A DNA stretch of 12,210 nucleotides from an uncultured Centipeda sp. GTDB lineage: Bacteria > Bacillota > Negativicutes > Selenomonadales > Selenomonadaceae. The notes beneath the pieces were generated by a model that searched no databases, was not told where the DNA came from, and saw nothing but the letters and a program-made list of their open reading frames with translations. Below are positions 199 to 10,859 of the stretch, piece after piece. The position numbers and the translations under genes are program-made. Position 1 is the first letter of the stretch. Every line of letters begins with the position of its first letter. The stretch covers positions 1 through 12,210 of the forward strand of contig CALALM010000460.1 in NCBI GenBank assembly GCA_937925565.1, given 5' to 3'.

Positions 199-1164
199 AT
201 GATAAAACAAATCCTGCGCGCGGCTCTCTGCGCGCTGATTCTTACCGCCGCCCTCTCGGGGAGTGCGCACGCGGCGCCCGAGATCATCGAGGCGGACGGC
301 GTCTATATGATGGGCGACAACGACACGCCGCGGAGCGCCCGCGATGCGGCGCGAAACGAAGCGATGCGTGCAGCGACGGAGCAGGCGGGCGTCTACATCG
401 AGAGCTACAGCGAGACACAGAACTATACGCTGACGCGCGATGAGGTCCGCATGGTCGCTGCCGCAGTGTTGCGCGTCCTGCACGAGGACGTGACGCCGGA
501 GCTCATCGAGGGAGCGTGGCGTTACCGCGTCCACCTCGTCTGCTCCGTGGATACGGAGGGGATCGACCTCAAGGCGCTCGCACAGAACAAGGCGGAGCTC
601 GCACGCCTCACACAGGAACGCGACGCATTGAAGAGGGCGAACGACGATCTCATGCGCCACTATGAGCAAAAGGATTCTGCAGCAAACGCCGCGACCGTCA
701 CGGACAGCGACAAGCTGAACGCCATCTTCGATGATGTATCAGCGATGATCCTGCGCGGCGAAACCGATCACGCGGTCGCAGACCTCTCTCTCCTCCTGCA
801 GGATCCGAGCGTTACGGGTGACGCACGCGCCTATGCTTACGTGCTGCGCGGGCGTGCTTACTACGATCAGCACAGCCGCGCGCTCGCCCGCGCCGACTTT
901 ACGGCGGCAGAGCGCACGCCGCACACGAACGGCACCTATCCCATCTGGAGACTCTACGAGTACCGCGGCAGGATCGCCTATGACGAGGGGCGCTATGACG
1001 ATGCGGTGAATGATCTCGTGAGCGCATGGGATGCCTCGGACAAGACGGACGACGAGCTCCGGATGACCCTGCGCCGCGCCGAACGCAGAGCGGAGCAGGA
1101 ACGCCGTCATCGCGTGCGCGGGGACGGCGGTGCACGCAGCTGGGGCATCGTCATCGTCCCATAG
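199..1164 (+). CDS. Exported protein with FlgT-N/LPP20-like domain, coiled coil and TPR-like repeats (paralog A)
   Basis: 321-residue predicted periplasmic or outer-membrane-associated protein of unknown function. ATG 199 is chosen because AGGAG (186-190) sits 8 nt upstream; an in-frame GTG at 190 overlaps that ribosome site. Residues 1-25 are a Sec signal peptide ending AHA|A. Residues 27-118 form a small alpha/beta domain (GVYMMG strand, ARNEAMRAATEQAG helix, closing WRYRVHLVCSV strand) that resembles FlgT N-terminal/LPP20 domains by pattern. Residues 122-160 are a charged probable coiled coil. Residues 172-300 contain TPR-like helices (AYVLRGRAYYDQ, YEYRGRIAYDEGRYDDAV). It aligns almost without gaps with the next gene, 11 bp downstream, so the two form an operon of tandem duplicates. 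Upstream, TTTAAT (158-163) could be a -10 box, but I see no good -35. The domain call is from pattern only. Confidence 0.85.
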   Translation: MIKQILRAALCALILTAALSGSAHAAPEIIEADGVYMMGDNDTPRSARDAARNEAMRAATEQAGVYIESYSETQNYTLTRDEVRMVAAAVLRVLHEDVTPELIEGAWRYRVHLVCSVDTEGIDLKALAQNKAELARLTQERDALKRANDDLMRHYEQKDSAANAATVTDSDKLNAIFDDVSAMILRGETDHAVADLSLLLQDPSVTGDARAYAYVLRGRAYYDQHSRALARADFTAAERTPHTNGTYPIWRLYEYRGRIAYDEGRYDDAVNDLVSAWDASDKTDDELRMTLRRAERRAEQERRHRVRGDGGARSWGIVIVP

Positions 1165-1175
1165 GAGGATATACC

Positions 1176-2168
1176 ATGCGCATACAACTCTATGCGGCAC
1201 TCCTTGCCGCGCTACTCGTCCTTTCGCTTTTTGGACAGACAGCAACTGCCGCCCCACAGATCATCACCGCCGAGGGCGTCGCCATCATGGGCGAGAGCGA
1301 CATGCCGAAGGACGTGCGTGCAGCCGCGCGGCGCGAGGCGATGCGTGCAGCAACAGAGCAGGCGGGCGTCTACGTCGAGAGCTATACCGAGATGCAGGAC
1401 TTCACCCTGACGAAGGACGAGGTGCGCATGATCGCGGGCTCCATCCTCCATATCATCAAGGAGGAGGCGATTCCCGAGGTCATTGAGGGAACATGGCAGT
1501 ACCGCGTCCGCCTCACCTGCGAGGTGGACACCTCCGAGGTCGACATCGCCGCCCTCGCGGAGAAAAAGGCGGAAATCGCGCGCCTCCAAAAAGAACGTGA
1601 CACCCTGGAGGCACAGAACAACGCCCTGCGCATCCGCGATGAACAGCGAAAGCGTGCGGCAGAGGCGGCGCGCGGGACACGCCTTGAGGACTCCCTCCCC
1701 TACACGGCGATCTTTGACGAGACGCTGCGCCTCATTCGGAGCGGTCAGGCAAAGGAGGCTACACTTGAGGTCACACGCCTCATCGGTGACCCGCGCGTCA
1801 CGGGCGATGCACTTGCGTACGCCTACTGTCTGCGCGGCATTGCATACTACGAGCTGGGCGAGGACAAGACCGCCATCCAGAACCTCAGGAGCGCGGACGA
1901 GATCTCACGTTCGAGTGCGCTCTATCCCCTCTGGCGCGGCGATCAGTACTACGCGCTCATCTGCGAGCGTCAGAAGCGTTGGAAGGACGCCGCCAAGTTC
2001 TTCCGCCTCGCGTGGGAGGCATCGGACAAGACCGACACACAGCTCAAAGAACAGCTCGAACGCGCCGAAGACCGCGTCGGGAAAAAGCGCGGCGGCATCG
2101 GCGCGTTTCTCGGCGGCATCGTAAACGGCGTGCTCAGCGTCGCCGGCGCCCTCGTTGGGATCGGTTGA
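1176..2168 (+). CDS. Exported protein with FlgT-N/LPP20-like domain, coiled coil, TPR-like repeats and glycine-rich hydrophobic tail (paralog B)
   Basis: 330-residue paralog of the preceding gene. ATG 1176 is supported by AGGAGG at 1163-1168, which overlaps the upstream TAG stop and indicates translational coupling. The order is the same: signal peptide (1-25, cut near ATA|A), FlgT-N/LPP20-like domain (27-118, with ARREAMRAATEQAG and WQYRVRLTCEV), coiled coil (about 122-165, AEIARLQKERDTLEAQN), and TPR-like helices (about 175-300, AYCLRGIAYYELGEDKTAI). It differs at the C-terminus, where residues 306-330 form a glycine-rich hydrophobic stretch (GGIGAFLGGIVNGVL and on) that could insert in a membrane or act as a glycine zipper. 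In DNA, 361-407 of the first copy and 1338-1384 of this one differ at only 3 of 47 positions. A role as scaffold or adaptor of an envelope complex is inference. Confidence 0.85.
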   Translation: MRIQLYAALLAALLVLSLFGQTATAAPQIITAEGVAIMGESDMPKDVRAAARREAMRAATEQAGVYVESYTEMQDFTLTKDEVRMIAGSILHIIKEEAIPEVIEGTWQYRVRLTCEVDTSEVDIAALAEKKAEIARLQKERDTLEAQNNALRIRDEQRKRAAEAARGTRLEDSLPYTAIFDETLRLIRSGQAKEATLEVTRLIGDPRVTGDALAYAYCLRGIAYYELGEDKTAIQNLRSADEISRSSALYPLWRGDQYYALICERQKRWKDAAKFFRLAWEASDKTDTQLKEQLERAEDRVGKKRGGIGAFLGGIVNGVLSVAGALVGIG

Positions 2169-2214
2169 TGAGCACCGGTGCATATGCCGATAGCGCCCCG
2201 CCTTTTGTCCCGCT

Positions 2215-2243
2215 TTGACAAAAATGCTCTCTTCCGCTATACT
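2215..2243 (+). promoter_or_regulatory. Sigma-A promoter of the DUF3829-like lipoprotein gene
   Basis: TTGACA (2215-2220), a 17-bp spacer and TATACT (2238-2243) make a near-perfect vegetative promoter. It lies 47 bp after the stop of the previous gene and 75 bp before the lipoprotein ATG, so that gene has its own transcription start, near 2250. Confidence 0.85.
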
Positions 2244-2287
2244 TTCCATGTTATGGAACAGTCATGCACGCCCCATGTTTTATGGAA
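2244..2287 (+). repeat. Two near-identical CCAT...ATGG palindromes at the transcription start
   Basis: TTCCAT-GTT-ATGGAA (2244-2258) begins one base after the -10 box. A second copy of its core, CCATGTTTTATGGAA, occurs at 2273-2287, 27 bp later. Each can form a small hairpin or serve as a dyad operator. A third hairpin, GGAAGC-CCT-GCTTCC (2284-2298), overlaps the second copy and ends 6 nt before the ribosome-binding site. The position over the start site suggests repressor binding or a leader-RNA role; neither can be decided here. Confidence 0.5.
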
Positions 2288-2318
2288 GCCCTGCTTCCGG
2301 ACCCAAAGGAGGATTTTC

Positions 2319-3242
2319 ATGTACCAACCTATGCGCCGTGCGCTCTCCGTCCTCGTGGTCGGCGGACTTCTCTGCGCGCCTGCCGCGCTCCTGTCTGGCT
2401 GCTTTGGCGGCAGCGACATGAAGGGGGAGGATGCCGCTTCGGCTGTCACGAGCATACTCGCCGGCAACACGACCGAGGACAAGATTGATGCCATCTCGCC
2501 CTACCTCGACGCGACCAACAACTACAATCACGTCATTGTCACGTTCGATTTCGCCATCTCCCCCTCGCTCGAAAAGATGCGCAGCGGTGAACGGCAGACG
2601 AGCATCTCTCTCCCGCATTTCGCCGCTCTGAAAAAGGATCTTGAGGAAGCGCGCGCCAACCCGAAGTCGGCGGGCGTCTTCCAGGACATCGACGCGGAGG
2701 CGGATGAGGTACTGAAGATCCTGAATGACCTCGCACCGCTCGCGGAAAAGATGGAGAGCTACTACTCCTCGAAGGGCTACCTGACGGACGACTATGCCGC
2801 CGCTGCGCAGATGACTGCACAGTACCTCCCGCTCTATGACAAGTTCGAGCCCGCCTATGACAAGTTCGACGCCGTCGTCACCGAGCGTTTCAAGGAAGTG
2901 CGCCTCGCTCAGCTCGAAGATATGAGGAAGGAAGGCAGGACGAACGCCGCCAACTTCCTCGAGCTCTCGATCAAGACACGCGATCTCGCGGATATGCTCG
3001 ACAATGAGAACATCGACAAGGCTGCCGCCGAGGCAAAGATCGCGGAGATCAACGAGCTTGCGGCAAAACTGCCGGATATCCCCGCACTCGCCTCCTACAA
3101 ACCGAACCTCAACCGCTTCATCGGCACGTTCCGCAGCTATGTCGCGGGCACGGAGGACGCCAACGAGGTCATCGACGACTTCAACGGTCTCGTACGCTCC
3201 TCCCAGAACCTCGATCTCGGCGAGCTCGACAAGAAGAAATAA
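2319..3242 (+). CDS. Lipoprotein, DUF3829/YiiG-like
   Basis: 307-residue predicted lipoprotein. ATG 2319 follows AAAGGAGG (2305-2312) by 6 nt. The signal peptide ends in the lipobox L25-S26-G27-C28, so Cys28 should be lipidated; residue +2 is Phe, not the Asp that retains lipoproteins in the E. coli inner membrane. The mature part is almost entirely helical and charged. It opens with a KIDAISPYLDATNNYN segment resembling the start of DUF3829 (E. coli YiiG family), and continues with repeated amphipathic helices (LAPLAEKMESYYSSKGYL, YDKFEPAYDKFDAVV, AAEAKIAEINELAAKLP). No catalytic motif is visible. The gene is monocistronic, with its own promoter and a strong terminator. Family assignment is by recalled pattern; function is unknown. 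Confidence 0.85.
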   Translation: MYQPMRRALSVLVVGGLLCAPAALLSGCFGGSDMKGEDAASAVTSILAGNTTEDKIDAISPYLDATNNYNHVIVTFDFAISPSLEKMRSGERQTSISLPHFAALKKDLEEARANPKSAGVFQDIDAEADEVLKILNDLAPLAEKMESYYSSKGYLTDDYAAAAQMTAQYLPLYDKFEPAYDKFDAVVTERFKEVRLAQLEDMRKEGRTNAANFLELSIKTRDLADMLDNENIDKAAAEAKIAEINELAAKLPDIPALASYKPNLNRFIGTFRSYVAGTEDANEVIDDFNGLVRSSQNLDLGELDKKK

Positions 3243-3254
3243 CGGACCGTCCTC

Positions 3255-3291
3255 AAAAAAGTGACGCAGCGCCCTGCTGCGTCACTTTTTT
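3255..3291 (+). terminator. Strong intrinsic terminator after the lipoprotein gene
   Basis: A perfect 16-bp stem, AAAAAAGTGACGCAGC / GCTGCGTCACTTTTTT, with a 5-nt loop GCCCT (3271-3275) and a six-T run in its 3' arm. It starts 13 bp after the TAA. The A-run on the 5' side means it could also stop minus-strand transcription. Confidence 0.95.
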
Positions 3292-3314
3292 CATATCATG
3301 CACACGTCCCCCCC

Positions 3315-3343
3315 TATACGTGCGCGAAAATTTATGGTATGAT
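3315..3343 (+). promoter_or_regulatory. Extended -10 promoter of the FlgT-like gene
   Basis: TGG-TATGAT (3335-3343) is an extended -10 element. A poor -35 (TATACG, 3315-3320, 3 of 6 matches) lies 17 bp upstream, as is usual for extended -10 promoters. Transcription would start near 3350, about 50 nt before the ATG. Confidence 0.6.
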
Positions 3344-3399
3344 GAAAAGGCAGAAAACACGTGCATTCCTTTGACAAACGAAAGGAGCGTACACACGTT

Positions 3400-4524
3400 A
3401 TGAAGAAACTACTCATCGCACTCTGCCTCTCTCTGGCGATGGTGCAGACCGCATTCGCCCAGACCGTCACCGTCGACGGCGTGGGCGTTGACCGCGACTC
3501 TGCAATGCGCGATGCCGCACGCGTCGCGGTCGAGCAGGTCGCCGGCATGTACATCAACTCAAATACCGTCGTCTCGAACACCTCTGTGGAGATGGACGAG
3601 ATTCTCTCGCACGCGCAGGGCTATGTCCAAAACATTCAGGTCATCAGCGAGTCCATGAATGGCGGCGAGTACCGCGTCCGTGCGAGCGTCGACGTGAACA
3701 CCGACCCGAACTCGGCGTTCATGAAGCGCATGGATGCCGTCATGCGCCTGAACGATCCGCGCATCGGTGTCGTTATCCTCACGGATGATTCGGACATCGA
3801 TCACGACTTCTATGGACTCCCCGGTCATGACACGATCCTCGAAACGGCACTCAACGAGCGGCTCCTCGCCGTCGGCTTCAAGCACGTCGTCGATGTGAGC
3901 CTCCTCTCGCAGCTGCAGGACTCTGCTGTGCTGAACGCCGTCTATCGCGGCGACAGCCGTCTCCCATACGCCGGCGATGCCTCCGCGCGCCCGATCGACT
4001 ACCTCGTCATCGGACGCAGCCACGCAGAGGGCTACAAGGTGAAGCTGCCGGACAATCAGGGCGGCTACGTCGAGACACAGATGTCCTCGGCACGCACACA
4101 CCTCGACCTCAAGATCATCTCGTTCGGCACGAGCACGATCATCGGAACCTACTCCGTCGATGGGCAGGGCGTCGAAAACAGCCCTGCGCTCGCGGCACGC
4201 AAGTCGCGTCAGGCGGCGGCGGTCAAGGCGGCGGAGAAGCTTGAGCAGCAGTTCCTGAAGGCAGCGGCAAGCGGATTCTCAGGCATCCAGTTCACCGTCC
4301 GCGCGAACGACTTCTCCCTCGTCGAGCAGCTCGTCAAGGAGCTCAAGGAACTGCGCGGCGTGCAGGATGTCTACGTACGTGGCACGAACGCGGGCAAGAC
4401 GACCATCGACATCGCCTCCGCGCAAAAGCCGTTCACCATCCTCCAGATGCTCCAGCGCAGCACCAGTCTCTCCATCTTCGTTGAGAGCACCAGCGACAGC
4501 GAGATCAAGATCACGCTGCGCTGA
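3400..4524 (+). CDS. FlgT-like three-domain exported protein
   Basis: 374-residue predicted periplasmic protein. ATG 3400 begins a clear signal peptide (MKKLLIALCL..., cut AFA|Q at 20/21); AAAGGAG (3381-3387) is 12 nt upstream, rather far. Domain 1 (about 22-102) is FlgT-N/LPP20-like: DGVGVDRDSAMRDAARVAVEQ helix, G49, closing YRVRASVDV strand. Domain 2 (about 118-288) begins RIGVVILTDD, contains ILETALNERLLAVGF and YLVIGRSHAEG, and looks like the TolB-N/CsgG-type alpha/beta fold of the FlgT middle domain. Domain 3 (about 295-374) is a small alpha/beta unit with two similar helix-strand halves. Vibrio FlgT forms the H ring around the flagellar basal body and has three domains. No flagellar gene is seen here, so a flagellar role is only one possibility. 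It is flanked by its own promoter and terminator. Confidence 0.85.
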   Translation: MKKLLIALCLSLAMVQTAFAQTVTVDGVGVDRDSAMRDAARVAVEQVAGMYINSNTVVSNTSVEMDEILSHAQGYVQNIQVISESMNGGEYRVRASVDVNTDPNSAFMKRMDAVMRLNDPRIGVVILTDDSDIDHDFYGLPGHDTILETALNERLLAVGFKHVVDVSLLSQLQDSAVLNAVYRGDSRLPYAGDASARPIDYLVIGRSHAEGYKVKLPDNQGGYVETQMSSARTHLDLKIISFGTSTIIGTYSVDGQGVENSPALAARKSRQAAAVKAAEKLEQQFLKAAASGFSGIQFTVRANDFSLVEQLVKELKELRGVQDVYVRGTNAGKTTIDIASAQKPFTILQMLQRSTSLSIFVESTSDSEIKITLR

Positions 4525-4552
4525 CGTTTCATCCTCTCGCAGGCAATAAGCT

Positions 4553-4582
4553 GCCGCATGAGTACTCGTGCGGCGGTTTTTT
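4553..4582 (+). terminator. Intrinsic terminator after the FlgT-like gene
   Basis: Stem GCCGCATGAG (4553-4562) pairs with CTCGTGCGGC (4565-4574) with one T-G wobble. The innermost pair probably opens into a GTAC loop. It is followed by GG and a six-T run (4577-4582), and lies 28 bp after the stop codon. Confidence 0.9.
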
Positions 4583-4706
4583 ATTGTTTTCCTGAAAAAC
4601 TTTTCATTTTTCCGAAACTGGTTTCCATCCGAAAGGCCCTGTAAAATCGCGTCATTACAAGCAACAATTCAGAAAATAGGACTTTTTAACCTGTCATATG
4701 TTACAG

Positions 4707-4735
4707 TTCCCATTTCTTTTAAATTATGCTAAAAT
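4707..4735 (+). promoter_or_regulatory. Promoter of the csgG-like/LPP20 operon
   Basis: TTCCCA (4707-4712, 4 of 6 consensus) is followed after 17 bp by TAAAAT (4730-4735), preceded by TGC, giving an extended -10. The transcript would start near 4742 and carry a leader of about 125 nt before the ATG at 4867. Within 4583-4866 I see no gene. There is a small dyad, GAAAC-TG-GTTTC (4614-4625), an imperfect TGTCA...TTACA dyad just upstream of the -35, and two short leader hairpins (GACAT...ATGTC at 4743-4757 and GCGTG-GTG-CACGC further on). Confidence 0.65.
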
Positions 4736-4866
4736 AACAGGCGACATCGAATATGTCAGTATCCATGCACCCACGGCAGGCAGCCGCGTGTTTTCTGCAA
4801 GAGTCACATCCGCCCATCCGCGTGGTGCACGCAGGGAGCCATTGGATCATTTTAAGGAGGAATTCT

Positions 4867-5541
4867 ATGTTGAAGAAAATGATGGGCATCCTTGTCCTTC
4901 TCGGTGGGCTGATGATGGGATCCGTCTGTCAGGCGGGACTCTACGACAACCCCACCGTTGCAATCATGCCCTTCCAGAACAAGGTGCCGGATCGGTGGGA
5001 CGGCTTCAGCGACCATGCGGGGGTTGCAACCGAGGAGCTCATCACCCTCATCAGCGACCGTCCCGACGTGTTCCAAGTCTATGAACGTATCGAACTCCAA
5101 GGGCTCGTGGATGAGCAGAGTCTCGGTATGACCGGACTCATCGCAGAGGACACCGCTGCCGAGGTCGGCAACCTCAGCGGTGTCGAGTACAAGATCTTCG
5201 GCGCACTCACAAACCTTTCGGCGAAGGAGGACTCCTTTGGTCTCGCCGGTCTCACGGGCGGTCTGCTCGGCAGTCAGGCAAGTGTCGTGGCAAATGTCTC
5301 AATCCGCGTCGTCGAGGTCTCGACGGGACGCGTCGTCCTCGTCGGGCAGGGCAAGGGCAGCTCGAAGCGCGTGTCAGGCGGCGTGGCCTCAGATGGTGGC
5401 GCGTTCATGCTCGGCTCTGCGAACGTCACCGACGAGATGGCGTTCAACGCCGTCTCCAAGGCGATCAAGGATGCCGTCAACGGCAAAGAGGGTCTCTTTA
5501 CGAAGATGGGCGTCAACGACAAAAAGGGAAAGAAACGTTAA
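4867..5541 (+). CDS. CsgG-family exported protein
   Basis: 224-residue member of the CsgG family (TolB-N-like fold), related to the outer-membrane pore that secretes curli subunits and to FlgO/LpoB-type envelope proteins. ATG 4867 follows AAGGAGG (4854-4860) by 6 nt. Signal peptide 1-23 is cut near CQA|G. Cys21 is preceded by Val, not Gly/Ala/Ser, so this is not a normal lipobox, unlike E. coli CsgG. Family hallmarks are in order: VAIMPFQNK (31-39), helix ATEELITLISDRPDVFQVYERIELQ, LGMTGLI, the VEYKIFGALTNL strand, the ASVVANVSIRVVEVSTGRVV strands, and VLVGQGKGSS. The segment GLAGLTGGLLGSQ (125-137) is small-residue-rich and could belong to a membrane hairpin. The C-terminus is very basic (KKGKKR). 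An LPP20 gene follows 63 bp downstream with no terminator, so they are probably co-transcribed. The substrate is unknown; no curli subunit is present. Confidence 0.9.
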   Translation: MLKKMMGILVLLGGLMMGSVCQAGLYDNPTVAIMPFQNKVPDRWDGFSDHAGVATEELITLISDRPDVFQVYERIELQGLVDEQSLGMTGLIAEDTAAEVGNLSGVEYKIFGALTNLSAKEDSFGLAGLTGGLLGSQASVVANVSIRVVEVSTGRVVLVGQGKGSSKRVSGGVASDGGAFMLGSANVTDEMAFNAVSKAIKDAVNGKEGLFTKMGVNDKKGKKR

Positions 5542-5604
5542 GTGCTTCCTTAAGAGAGCACCATCCGCCGAAAAGTTTCATTTTCACAAAAAGGAGCGAC
5601 AACA

Positions 5605-6507
5605 ATGAAGAATTTGAAGAAGAAGGCACTGGTCAGCGCCGTGGCAGGCGTATTTGCATTCGGGGCGGGCTTCTATGCCGCACCGAACTCCTCCCTCCCC
5701 TCCCTGACCATCATGCAGGCAGCCGAGGCAGCCGCTCAGTGGGAGCAGGGCACAATCACAGCCGAGGGCTTCGGCACGCCACCGATGGGCACCTACGGCT
5801 CGAAGGCGAGCATCATGGCGCGCCGCGCTGCGATTGTGGACGCACAGCGCAACCTCGCCGAGCAGATCAATGGCGTGCAGGTCGATGCGGAGACAACCGT
5901 CGAGAACTTCGTCATCCGCAGTGATGTCGTCAAAACCAAGGTCAGTGCGCTTATCAAGGGTGCCATGGTCGTTGAGGAGCAGATGATGCCCGACGGCGCC
6001 TACCGCGTCGTCATGTCCATGCCGATGTACGGTATGCAGGGTCTCTCCTCTGCCATCATGCCTGCGATCCGCGACAACACGCCGCCCACGCCGCCCCCGC
6101 CGGTCATCTCCGCCACCATCACGGCTGAGATCCGGGCGCAGGTCCAGACGAGAGGCGTAGGCTACACGGGCGTCATCGTGGATGCGAGCGGCATGGGCCT
6201 CAAGCCCAGCTTCTCCCCCGTCATCTATGACACAAACGGCAGAGCCATCTACGGCGTCAGCAATATCAACTACGATCAGGCGATCTCGCAGGGCATGGTC
6301 GGCTACTCAAGCAGCGTCTCTGCGGCACAGGCACTCCCGCGTGCTGGCGGCAGCCCGCTCGTCGTAAGAGCGGTGCAGGTGCGCGGCGGCAACAACTCCA
6401 CCAACCCCGTGAACGTTGTCGTCTCCGTTGACGACGGCGACCGCATCCTCGCGGCGAATGCGCAGAGCCAGATGCTCATGAACGGCAGCGTCGTGTTTGT
6501 GCGCTGA
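5605..6507 (+). CDS. LPP20-family exported protein with proline linker and C-terminal beta domain
   Basis: 300-residue predicted envelope protein. ATG 5605 follows AAGGAG (5591-5596) by 8 nt. A long signal region (basic MKNLKKK, hydrophobic core) is probably cut in the AEAAAQ segment near 42-45, with no lipobox, whereas Helicobacter LPP20 is a lipoprotein. Residues about 48-142 match the LPP20 pattern: GTITAEGFG, then SIMARRAAIVDAQRNLAEQINGV split into a strand-turn-helix, VDAETTVENFVI, and closing AYRVVMSMPMYG. A proline linker (TPPTPPPP, 159-166) leads to a second domain (about 168-300) rich in G/V/S/N, with GYTGVIVDASG and SPVIYDTNGRAIYGV, probably a beta sandwich. In other bacteria LPP20-domain proteins are often encoded with CsgG/FlgO-type genes, as here. 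The gene ends at a strong terminator. Function is unknown; a partner in an outer-membrane ring is inference. Confidence 0.88.
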   Translation: MKNLKKKALVSAVAGVFAFGAGFYAAPNSSLPSLTIMQAAEAAAQWEQGTITAEGFGTPPMGTYGSKASIMARRAAIVDAQRNLAEQINGVQVDAETTVENFVIRSDVVKTKVSALIKGAMVVEEQMMPDGAYRVVMSMPMYGMQGLSSAIMPAIRDNTPPTPPPPVISATITAEIRAQVQTRGVGYTGVIVDASGMGLKPSFSPVIYDTNGRAIYGVSNINYDQAISQGMVGYSSSVSAAQALPRAGGSPLVVRAVQVRGGNNSTNPVNVVVSVDDGDRILAANAQSQMLMNGSVVFVR

Positions 6508-6526
6508 GATAGAACGAACCATATTA

Positions 6527-6563
6527 AAAACACCTCTGCACTATTTTGATGCAGAGGTGTTTT
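6527..6563. terminator. Bidirectional intrinsic terminator between convergent genes
   Basis: A perfect 14-bp stem, AAAACACCTCTGCA (6527-6540) / TGCAGAGGTGTTTT (6550-6563), with a 9-nt loop CTATTTTGA. T-runs are present on both strands, so it should end both the plus-strand LPP20 transcript and the minus-strand dpaL-linked transcript, whose last stop codon is at 6593. Confidence 0.95.
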
Positions 6564-6592
6564 ACATTTCATATGCCATTTACGGATTTCCG

Positions 6593-7150
6593 TCATCCTG
6601 CCGTCCGAGGTTTCTGTGTAAGCGCATCCTCGCACGACGCAAGCACCTGTCCGGAGTAACAGTAAAAACTGTAAAAGAGTTCCGCCGGGAACACATCCTC
6701 GTCCTCCCAGCGCAGTTCGTCCTCCTCCTCGTCGTAAACCTCCGACCAGAGGTATTCTTCGCGCAGGAGATCGGAGAAGTACGGCAGGGGCGCGGCGTGC
6801 TCCATCACATCGCCCATGCGGACGCATTCAGCAATCAGCAGGAAGTGCTCCAAGAGCCGCTCCGCAATCCTGCGCGCGATTTCATTGTCTGCCTGCGCGG
6901 CAAGTGCGCGCCGAAAGATCCGCACGAGGAAGACGAGCGCAAACGGCGTTGCGTGCCAGAGCGTGCCCTGATGCTCCGTGTTGATGATCAGTTCGTAGAG
7001 GGCATCCTCCACCGCTGTAAGGTCGTCCATGGACTCCAACACGGCAAAGTACCGAGGAAACGCCGTTGCGCGCCCATAGGGCGTCGTCAGTCGATGCCAC
7101 GGCACATCATTCACGGTCAGCATCGCAATATAGCGTTCATTCTCAGTCAT
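6593..7150 (-). CDS. Small protein with HEAT-like 'HQGT' segment, function unknown
   Basis: 185-residue soluble protein with no signal peptide. ATG 7150 (MTENERYIAM) has GGAGGG 6 nt upstream (7157-7162); a longer frame to 7234 is rejected because it lacks such a site and would nearly reach dpaL. Residues 44-82 contain TAVEDALYELIINTEHQGT and ATPFALVFLVRIF. This resembles the first repeat of bacterial HEAT-repeat proteins, which commonly read '...HQGT.Y.AT..A.PFL..LL'. A helical middle part follows, then a strongly acidic stretch (137-152, DEEEDELRWEDED) and an aromatic segment (ELFYSFYCYSG). It lies 80 bp after dpaL in the same orientation with no clear terminator between, so co-transcription is likely. 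It could be a regulatory or immunity-type HEAT-like protein; I do not recognise a named family. Confidence 0.75.
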   Translation of the reverse strand: MTENERYIAMLTVNDVPWHRLTTPYGRATAFPRYFAVLESMDDLTAVEDALYELIINTEHQGTLWHATPFALVFLVRIFRRALAAQADNEIARRIAERLLEHFLLIAECVRMGDVMEHAAPLPYFSDLLREEYLWSEVYDEEEDELRWEDEDVFPAELFYSFYCYSGQVLASCEDALTQKPRTAG

Positions 7151-8865: not shown

Positions 8866-10188
8866 ATGAAGAAAACTCTGGTATCCGCGCTCAGCGCAGC
8901 ACTCGTCATCGGCGCAGCATCGACGACGTTCGCGGCGGCGAATCCATTTTCGGATGTGCCGCGCGACCACTGGGCGTACGATGCCGTGACGCAGCTCGCC
9001 GCCGACGGCGTGGTCGAGGGCTACGGCGACGGCACGTACCGCGGCGACCGCAACATCACGCGCTACGAGATGGCACAGATGGTCGCGAAGGCGATGGCAA
9101 AGGACAACCTGTCCTCCTCGGACCGCGCACTTGTCGACCGTCTCGCGGCGGAGTTCGCCGACGAGCTGAATAACCTCGGCGTTCGCGTGTCGAACCTCGA
9201 GCGCAATGCCGATATGGTCAAGTGGAACGGCGAGCTGCGCTACACCTATGAGCGTGTCGGCGGCGAATTCGTCGGCAAATATGTGGGGCAGCGTCAGACG
9301 AACAACGAGCTGCTCTTCCGCCTCAATCCGACGGCAGAGGTGAACGACCACTGGTCGGTCAGGGCACGCCTCGACGCGAAGACGAATCTGAAGTCCGACG
9401 CGGGAAATAACGGCACGGTCAAACTCAAGCGCGCGTGGGCGGAGGGCAAATACGGCGCGACTGTGGTCCGGCTGGGCAAATTCCCTGTCTTCACGGAACA
9501 GGGTGTGCTTTTCGACGGCGAAATGTCGGGCGCGGGACTGACCCTCGGTGCCGACAGGACAGTTTCCGCCACGCTCTATGCAGGCCGCTACAATCTCGAG
9601 GACTCTGCATGGGGGGACGAGATCACCGAGGCGAAAGAGGCGGGGAGCTACACCGGCGGAACGGCGGCAAGCATGCAGGGAATCACGCTGAACTGGGATC
9701 CCTCGGATCGGTTCCACCTCGGGGTGGATTACCTGCGGCTCGGCAACAACAAGCTCCTGACGGGCATGATGGACGTGAAGGATCCGCTGAATTACTACGG
9801 TGTCGGCATCACCTACCGTCCCGTGCAGACAGTCTATCTCTCGGGCGGCTACTGGAAGACGAACAGCCACGAAAGCGCCGAGATCAAAAAAGAGCACATG
9901 AAGTCGTACAACATCGAACTCGGCTACAAGGGCGCAGAGGCATCGGATCCCGGTTCGTTCGGTGTCTATGCCGCCTACCGCTACATCGGCGGCATGGGCA
10001 CGATCGCCCCGACGTTCGACGGCGCGATGTGGAACACAAAGGGCTGGGAGATCGGCGGTCAGTACACGATACGGAAGAATATTGTCGGTTCGCTCATCTA
10101 CTTCCAGGGCAACGAGATCTTCTCTGCCGAGCCCGAGGGCAAAACAGGCATCAAGAAGGGGTTCGGCCGCGTCGAGTTCTTCTTCTGA
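8866..10188 (+). CDS. SLH-domain outer-membrane porin (OmpM/Mep45-like)
   Basis: 440-residue outer-membrane protein of the type that in Negativicutes tethers the outer membrane to the cell wall. AAAGGAGG at 8851-8858 supports ATG 8866. Signal peptide is about 1-23 (TFA|A). Residues 27-75 are one SLH domain (NPFSDVPRDHWAYDAVTQLA, GVVEGYGDGTYRGDRNITRYEMAQMV); in Selenomonas and Veillonella such domains bind polyamine-modified peptidoglycan. Residues about 82-115 are a helical, probably coiled-coil spacer (LVDRLAAEFADELNNLGVRVSNLE). Residues about 118-440 show alternating beta strands of a porin barrel (WNGELRYTYERV, FGVYAAYRYIGG) and end FGRVEFFF, with the C-terminal Phe expected of BAM substrates. 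Length and order fit the OmpM family. It has its own strong promoter, a long leader and a terminator. I do not assign a specific ompM number. Confidence 0.93.
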   Translation: MKKTLVSALSAALVIGAASTTFAAANPFSDVPRDHWAYDAVTQLAADGVVEGYGDGTYRGDRNITRYEMAQMVAKAMAKDNLSSSDRALVDRLAAEFADELNNLGVRVSNLERNADMVKWNGELRYTYERVGGEFVGKYVGQRQTNNELLFRLNPTAEVNDHWSVRARLDAKTNLKSDAGNNGTVKLKRAWAEGKYGATVVRLGKFPVFTEQGVLFDGEMSGAGLTLGADRTVSATLYAGRYNLEDSAWGDEITEAKEAGSYTGGTAASMQGITLNWDPSDRFHLGVDYLRLGNNKLLTGMMDVKDPLNYYGVGITYRPVQTVYLSGGYWKTNSHESAEIKKEHMKSYNIELGYKGAEASDPGSFGVYAAYRYIGGMGTIAPTFDGAMWNTKGWEIGGQYTIRKNIVGSLIYFQGNEIFSAEPEGKTGIKKGFGRVEFFF

Positions 10189-10308: not shown

Positions 10309-10563
10309 ATGACTGCGATCAACGCCACTGCGGCACGTCGGAATCTCTATCAGCTCATCTCAGAGGTAAACGAGAACCGCAGACCTGTCATCATCACGAA
10401 CACACGCGGTAAGAACGCGGTTCTGCTCTCCGAGGAGGACTGGAACGCTGTACAGGAAACGCTCTATCTGAACGCCATCCCCGGTATGACCGCGAGCATT
10501 CTCGCCGCTGACCACGAGCCACTCGATACCTGTGCGACGTATGACCCAAACGAGGCGTGGTAA
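10309..10563 (+). CDS. YefM/Phd-family antitoxin
   Basis: 84-residue antitoxin. ATG 10309 follows AAAGGAGG (10294-10301) by 7 nt. The N-terminal half is the Phd/YefM fold: MTAINATAARRNLYQLISEV, then RPVIITNTRGKNAVLLSEEDW, then a short helix (NAVQETLYL). This part dimerises and binds DNA in the family. The C-terminal third (about 57-84) is the tail that would wrap and neutralise the toxin. The stop overlaps the toxin start by one base (TAATG), the usual coupled arrangement. It probably autorepresses the promoter at 10255-10283. It is complete, with no sign of damage. Confidence 0.92.
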   Translation: MTAINATAARRNLYQLISEVNENRRPVIITNTRGKNAVLLSEEDWNAVQETLYLNAIPGMTASILAADHEPLDTCATYDPNEAW

Positions 10564-10859
10564 TGTACCTCATTAAGTTCAGTAAACAGGCGGAAAAGGA
10601 TAAGCCGTGCCTCAAGGCTGCGGGACTTGAGGCAAAGGCAAAGGCACTGCTGAATCTCATGCAGGATAACCCGTTTCAGAACCCGCCGCCCTACGAAAAA
10701 CTCGTCGGCAATCTGAGCGGGAATCTTTCGCGGCGTATCAACATCCAACATCGACTGGTATACGCCGTACTGGAAAACACCAAAGGCTATGCTGCGCCGA
10801 CAGGAGAGCTCTACGATGGCATCATTCTCGTCAAACGGATGTGGACGCATTACGAATAG
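10563..10859 (+). CDS. YoeB/Txe-family ribosome-dependent mRNA interferase toxin
   Basis: 98-residue toxin of the RelE superfamily, which cleaves mRNA in the ribosomal A site. ATG 10563 overlaps the antitoxin stop. The family signature is clear: NPPPYEKLVGNLSG, then LSRRINIQHRLVYAV, and C-terminal MWTHYE. By alignment with E. coli YoeB, E45, R64, H96 and Y97 correspond to E46, R65, H83 and Y84, so all catalytic residues are present. Between the last two strands it has a longer loop (ENTKGYAAPTGELYDGI) than the 84-residue E. coli protein, a variation seen in Firmicute relatives. The unit is intact and so is probably functional. The small GNAT-like gene starts 17 bp downstream. Confidence 0.93.
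   Translation: MYLIKFSKQAEKDKPCLKAAGLEAKAKALLNLMQDNPFQNPPPYEKLVGNLSGNLSRRINIQHRLVYAVLENTKGYAAPTGELYDGIILVKRMWTHYE

Follow-up and report, generated by a model that had tools for sequence, protein, structure and literature searches.

Do six neighbouring genes for exported proteins in a Centipeda genome encode one outer-membrane complex, and, if only some of them belong together, is their product a part of the flagellum? The question is raised by a stretch of 12,210 nucleotides from an uncultured Centipeda sp. (contig CALALM010000460.1; this whole stretch is hereafter the window, and coordinates are positions in it), where six study genes, g1-g6, span 199-6507 (Table 1). The original prediction, made from this DNA without database searches, had joined all six in one complex built from folds known from the flagellar proteins FlgO, FlgP and FlgT and from CsgG. 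The answer reached here is narrower: g4-g5-g6 (module B) are real and conserved as a trio, the sextet was over-read, and g1-g2-g3 (module A) are a module separable from the trio. In its folds the trio corresponds to the FlgO/FlgT/FlgP set of the H-ring, with the domains differently distributed. We give an even chance to the reading that it is a non-lipidated, ring-forming, outer-membrane-associated module of this type which is not dedicated to flagella, a reading in which we infer the ring and the location.

Linkage and folds of the g4-g5-g6 trio

The class Negativicutes was sampled with 200 genomes, in which some absences may be assembly gaps. A g4 query matched 67 of them at E <= 1e-3, part of these matches being to ACT or FlgT_N only, and profile searches with genome floors of at least 150 bits for g4 and at least 166 bits for g6 placed g4 in 49 genomes, g6 in 64 and both in 48. 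Linkage was counted in 45 loci (40 from 40 of the 67 g4-matching genomes, plus L001-L005), from which six without a g4 above 200 bits were dropped, leaving 39; outside the 40-region sample stand G016, G063, G066, G067, G077, G094, G101, G105, G156, G173 and G194, plus weak matches. Within 2 kb of g4, a CsgG gene was found in 36 of the 39 loci (33 on the same strand), an LPP20 gene in 26, every one on the same strand, and both in 23. When seven closely related oral Centipeda/Selenomonas loci are set aside, CsgG is still found near g4 in 29 of 32 loci, and 16 of 32 have the two partners together. In L054-L056, L059, L060, L062, L063 and L065 the genes form a tight operon on one strand, in the order CsgG-FlgT-LPP20 and 4-49 bases apart, and a CsgG match stands beside g4 in the 4-kb loci of G066, G101, G156 and G194 (L039, L019, L021 and L016). 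The linkage of the trio persists at about 30% identity amid unlike neighbourhoods, and no neighbour family outside it recurs in more than 8 of the 45 loci. Conservation of the gene neighbourhood across Negativicutes holds for g4-g5-g6 and not for the six genes. In a divergent second g4 subtype (G016, G067, G077, G094, G105, G173) no g6 was found within 8 kb.

In L043-L052, L069 and L075 the module is enlarged to as many as about ten exported proteins in a row, several of them CsgG-like, and these expanded loci hold two families of about 270 aa, in 6 loci each, of which the two members scanned matched no Pfam family. TolC/MacAB-like (L071) and TolC/RND-like (L056) genes, named by eye, flank the trio in at least two loci; a relative of the periplasmic adaptor of L071 occurs in 3 of the 45 (L043, L056, L071), which is too few, and a tripartite-efflux partner was rejected.

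The FlgT, FlgP and CsgG folds assigned by the original prediction were borne out by profile matches to PDB entries and by a fold search with the AlphaFold2 (AF2) model of g4. The best PDB matches of this model were 8z5n_0, a chain of the LPHT ring (E 3.9e-9), and FlgT 3w1e (E 4.6e-8), and next after FlgT came CsgG and PelC, with the PelC dodecamer among the fold matches. The one CsgG-like gene that had been foreseen is g5, the CsgG domain of which scores 64.3 bits against a cut-off of 20.8 and the family profile of which matches CsgG (E 1e-5) and two entries of FlgT, 3w1e (E 4.4e-5, positions 105-252) and 9ydo (E 2.5e-4, positions 104-297). The N, M and C domains of FlgT do not stand together in one chain: g4 has an N domain below the cut-off, an M-like domain and an ACT-like end, and a Pfam scan found no FlgT_C (SH3) domain in g5. 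Distant CsgG partners end in FlgT_C (above the Pfam cut-off in two of the four tested, below it in the other two), and its presence on them and not on g4 implies that in Negativicutes the three domains of FlgT are dealt out over g4 and g5. FlgO (PF17680) was detected in one of four distant CsgG partners (L062; 28.2 bits, cut-off 22.6) and not in g5. A "412-aa homologue" in several genomes of about 2.1 Mb was set aside because it looks like aspartokinase, matching via the ACT domain (the L077 protein was scanned, the others were judged by equal length and match).

The LPP20 domain (PF02169) of g6 exceeds its cut-off (29.4 versus 25.9 bits). The g6 family profile matches 9hmf_C, a chain of a C. 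jejuni motor model which we take to be FlgP, at E 8e-24, and the FlgP chains of 8z5n, 9yec and related entries, presumably from Vibrio, at E about 1e-11; the C-terminal domain of g6 matches part of PDB 5jir. Neither g5 nor g6 has a lipobox, and in the trio families a lipobox-like motif was found in 1 of 24, 1 of 22 (g6 family; L056) and 1 of 21 (g5 family; L055) members, so that the typical member has none. A further LPP20-type protein, about 390 aa long, is encoded elsewhere in Centipeda (G005:C1:711210-712250); the g6 profile matches it in two pieces, and similarly split matches occur in G001, G002, G162 and G182.

The N-terminal domain expected to be shared by four of the genes was confirmed at the profile level as an SHS2-type FlgT_N/LPP20 domain common to g1, g2, g4 and g6, the scores of g1, g2 and g4 all lying below the Pfam FlgT_N cut-off of 28.8 bits. 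In profile-profile comparison (hhalign) the g4 family aligns with the g6 family at a probability of 98.8% and E 1.2e-16, and g1/g2 align with g6 at 96.4% and E 1.1e-9, in an alignment that takes in part of the signal peptide. The N-terminal half of g6 aligns with 9hmf_C (taken as FlgP) over SHS2 and the hairpin segment, a likeness to the Campylobacter FlgP basal disk, from which g6 differs in its extra C-terminal domain and in the missing lipobox. FlgP is described as forming a disk (ring) by means of a hairpin inserted after the SHS2 helix and before strand two, with rings said to follow from this insertion (PMC12222027); the ring-hairpin segment aligns without gaps to g6 and to g4.

The H-ring of Vibrio is given as FlgO, FlgP and FlgT, with the adjacent gene numbers VF_1883-1885 (PMC6375700). 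The trio resembles it in having the same three fold classes, likewise in neighbouring genes, and in its PDB matches to FlgP and FlgT. It differs in that the CsgG partner of its distant members, and not the FlgT_N protein, carries FlgT_C, in the ACT-like end of g4, in having no typical lipoboxes, and in that it was not seen next to flagellar genes and occurs also in genomes without flagella. The CsgG domain of g5 and the CsgG-like middle domain of g4 recall the curli channel, whereas g5 is shorter than CsgG and has no lipobox, and CsgF and curlin were absent from the 10 genomes searched (the window's own genome not among them; the E. coli control was positive), so that a curli system was rejected. 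From the outer-membrane helper folds of the PelC/TolB-N/LptE type the trio differs in its setting, since none of the 9 window proteins scanned is a pel, tol or lpt product. The Leptospira family LipL46 (NCBIfam NF033164) matches g4 over residues 30-329 at E 4.6e-5; g4, however, scores 22.3 bits versus a cut-off of 400, and LipL46 is a lipoprotein by its family name. The open-access literature searched did not yield the trio, which is no proof of its being undescribed.

The trio and the flagellum

Rings of the FlgO/T/P type are flagellar accessories, and the trio, too, may be genuinely flagellar: in flagellated Negativicutes it would form an H-ring or basal disk that surrounds the LP ring, and the non-flagellate copies would be decaying or repurposed. 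We judge this unlikely, in spite of the fold match to FlgO/T/P. FlgI and FlgH were each found in 106 of the 200 genomes, which means that an LP ring is available to decorate (since FlgH is as frequent as FlgI, replacement of a missing L-ring was rejected). The distribution of g4, present in 41 of 106 genomes with FlgI versus 8 of 94 without it (Fisher 4.6e-7, uncorrected for kinship), fits a flagellar role, as does the state of some non-flagellate copies: g4 of G034 and G057 has no C-terminal domain, and that of G192 is interrupted by a stop. A precedent is offered by H. pylori FapH, which is reported to form an outer-membrane ring and to share an operon with flgP, the motor ring being thought to protect the outer membrane (PMC11756786).

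On the other side, g4 was not found in 65 of the 106 FlgI-positive genomes, and its occurrence is not solely with a flagellum: 8 of the 49 g4 genomes have neither FlgI nor FlgH nor FlhA (no FlhA match in any of the 8). In seven of these eight carriers the g4 match is free of internal stops; G062 and G036 hold two copies each, and the tight CsgG-FlgT-LPP20 operon is kept in G062 (L065; 2.23-Mb contig) and G063 (L096). In a g4 tree of 41 rows, ten non-flagellate rows are nested among flagellate ones with at least 4 label changes, the exact places of G063 (a long branch) and of G118 and the second G062 row (unusual make-up) being unsure, and this nesting implies several losses of the flagellum with retention of g4, or transfers. 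From the distribution of g4 relative to FlgI, FlgH and FlhA and from the tree it follows that the trio is neither a fixed flagellar part nor independent of the flagellum in its distribution.

Gene context, too, argues against a flagellar accessory. As the original prediction had stated, no neighbouring flagellar or curli genes were seen: the 9 window proteins scanned (four right-end genes were left out) contain no such families besides FlgT_N, CsgG and LPP20, and in the loci inspected by eye no gene near the trio was recognisably flagellar. FlgI is present in all five reference genomes at another site, about 300 kb off in the Centipeda genome. Images exist of the flagellar motors of Selenomonas sp. 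and Acetonema longum (PMC8263016), and two reports discuss for A. longum a possible E-ring and not an H-ring (PMC11870540, PMC13023049). In a scan of the window with a sigma-28 (flagellar) promoter consensus, the best sites had 3 mismatches in 12, and 10 such sites were found versus 7-17 in six mononucleotide shuffles.

Possible architecture and other readings

FlgP, CsgG, PelC and FlgT work as rings. On the reading of the trio as an outer-membrane-associated module not dedicated to flagella, g4, g5 and g6 would most likely assemble concentric periplasmic rings just beneath the outer membrane: the SHS2 domains of g6 and g4 would make a ring of the FlgP/FlgT type, the CsgG/PelC-type domains of g5 and g4 a second ring, and the two could together serve as an outer-membrane collar or gate. 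Module A (g1/g2 with g3) would perhaps contact them as a scaffold using the same SHS2 surface. The trio may then serve as a ring, as a pore or in trafficking. Several observations weigh against this reading, including the preference for FlgI-positive genomes and the damaged non-flagellate copies described above. The g4 model is moderate (predicted local distance difference test, pLDDT, 68.8; predicted template modelling score, pTM, 0.54), and its global TM-scores to FlgT are low, 0.25-0.28; the hairpin segment is of low confidence in it (residues 49-73, pLDDT <50) and is helical in the AF2 model of g2. There is no CsgG by g4 in L071, L073 and L074, and 19 of the 49 g4 genomes have no g6 at 8 kb or less from g4, although linkage can be masked by contig ends.

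A broader version of the same reading, which we offer tentatively and consider doubtful, is that of a ring or export gate of the outer membrane which does not depend on the flagellum, is widespread among diderm Firmicutes and consists of parts of the FlgO/FlgT/FlgP type that have no lipid anchors: either a free-standing machine which was co-opted by flagella elsewhere as the H-ring and basal disk, or the reverse. If it is true, a stand-alone trio retained in genomes lacking flagella would give this fold kit a wider role in the envelope, and would allow a natural test of whether rings of this type originated within the flagellum or outside it. An outer-membrane structure would, moreover, be made without lipid anchors in Negativicutes, for which Lol components are reported to have been seen in none of the genomes (PMC5491611).

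Quite improbable is the view of the trio as a CsgG-type pore that exports a surface protein, with g4 and g6 as periplasmic gate and plug. The CsgG domain of g5 speaks for such a pore, as does the expansion of the operon in L043-L052, where the two families of about 270 aa could be cargo. However, the lack of CsgF and curlin matches and of a lipobox in g5 speaks against it, the g5 segments at both sites of the membrane beta-hairpins of CsgG look short (alignments only), and at the window-type trio no exported neighbour recurs except module A and an SLH porin. That the six are unrelated envelope genes, clustered by chance or expression and forming no complex, would agree with the three terminator-like hairpins that split the region, with the separability of modules A and B and with flanks that vary between strains, but is very improbable; against it stands the linkage of the trio, which outlasts divergence to about 30% identity in unlike neighbourhoods.

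Module A, transcription and flanking genes

Six consecutive plus-strand genes for exported proteins, as originally described, are indeed present, each open reading frame having a signal-like N-terminus (judged by eye). The helical lipoprotein among them is g3, with an LSGC lipobox and a DUF3829 domain (PF12889) at 58.3 bits, above the cut-off of 26.8. In the AF2 model of g2, a stranded N-terminal domain is followed by a long helix (124-188) and tetratricopeptide repeats (TPR; 171-308); among the fold-search matches listed there are TPRs alone, by which the N-terminal domain is barely tested. The tandem copy g2 is found in 4 of 9 loci holding g1 at >400 bits (L005, L041, L079, L080). Full-length relatives of g1/g2 are present in 24 of the 200 genomes, two of these matched in two pieces; they adjoin g4 in 6, are present together with g4 but apart from it in 13, and in 5 (G052, G159, G167, G176, G200) g4 was not found. 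This rarity of adjacency and the genomes without g4 argue against one complex built from all six genes, and the six as a single unit were rejected. In L075, outside the 24 genomes, a divergent g1-like protein (301 bits) is encoded 1.06 kb away from a g4 gene. Of 23 module-A loci, 12 have a DUF3829 lipoprotein alongside g1 (9 of 9 in one locus set, 3 of 14 in the other), and outer-membrane proteomics of Veillonella lists DUF3829 proteins and a TPR protein (PMC5491611).

Table 1. Genes and transcription signals of the g1-g6 region
Feature	Coordinates	Strand	Evidence
g1, exported FlgT_N (SHS2)-coiled coil-TPR protein, 321 aa	199..1164	+	Pfam FlgT_N 21.0 bits and TPR, both below cut-off
g2, tandem paralogue of g1, 330 aa	1176..2168	+	Pfam FlgT_N 20.4 bits and TPR, both below cut-off
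Sigma-70-like promoter before g3	2215..2243	+	11/12 matches
g3, DUF3829 helical lipoprotein, LSGC lipobox	2319..3242	+	Pfam DUF3829 58.3 bits
Intrinsic-terminator-like hairpin after g3	3255..3291	+	-24.8 kcal/mol, z -8.6
g4, FlgT_N, CsgG/FlgT_M-like middle and ACT-like C-terminal domain, 374 aa	3400..4524	+	Pfam FlgT_N 25.6 bits, model, profiles
Intrinsic-terminator-like hairpin after g4	4548..4579	+	z -5.5
Weak sigma-70-like promoter before g5	4707..4735	+	9/12 matches
g5, CsgG-like exported protein, no lipobox, 224 aa	4867..5541	+	Pfam CsgG 64.3 bits
g6, LPP20/FlgP-like domain and C-terminal domain, no lipobox, 300 aa	5605..6507	+	Pfam LPP20 29.4 bits
Intrinsic-terminator-like hairpin after g6	6527..6563	+	z -8.1

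The hairpins after g3, g4 and g6 are all strong and have T-runs, and the terminator scan of the window found no such sites in either the g1-g2 or the g5-g6 gap. Together with the promoter-like sites before g3 and g5, the hairpins suggest the transcripts g1-g2, g3, g4 and g5-g6. The promoter scan gave 5 sites in the window versus 2.0 (sd 1.5) in shuffles, and the weaker promoter, before g5, may be due to chance because shuffles alone yield 2.0 sites. Separate promoters and several transcripts, as first proposed, are therefore plausible; that these serve one complex did not hold.

The window is close to Centipeda periodontii: locus L005 (DSM 2778) is 99% identical to it over g4, 97-98% over g2, g5 and g6, 91% over g1 and 89% over g3. 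The six genes are flanked on the left by a truncated tRNA-like sequence and on the right by a minus-strand pair (g7, diaminopropionate ammonia-lyase). The former is the 5' half of a tRNA-like gene (read as tRNA by eye; ARAGORN called no tRNA) at 1-40 of the minus strand, which runs off the left edge and has a 12/12 sigma-70-like promoter at 92-64, minus strand. Just 3' of g6 is a site that varies by strain, holding Abi_C, an HsdM methylase or an IrrE/M78 peptidase (L001 13183-14070, L003 13516-15522, L005 13820-14983) and none of these in the window (6507-6593); it may be an insertion hot spot for defence genes. Further right, at 8866-10188, lies an SLH porin (SLH above the cut-off, OmpM-like by resemblance), of which L004 and L005 have two divergent copies, and at 10309-10859 two small genes side by side resemble by eye a toxin-antitoxin pair of the YefM/YoeB type and are about 87% identical in L004.

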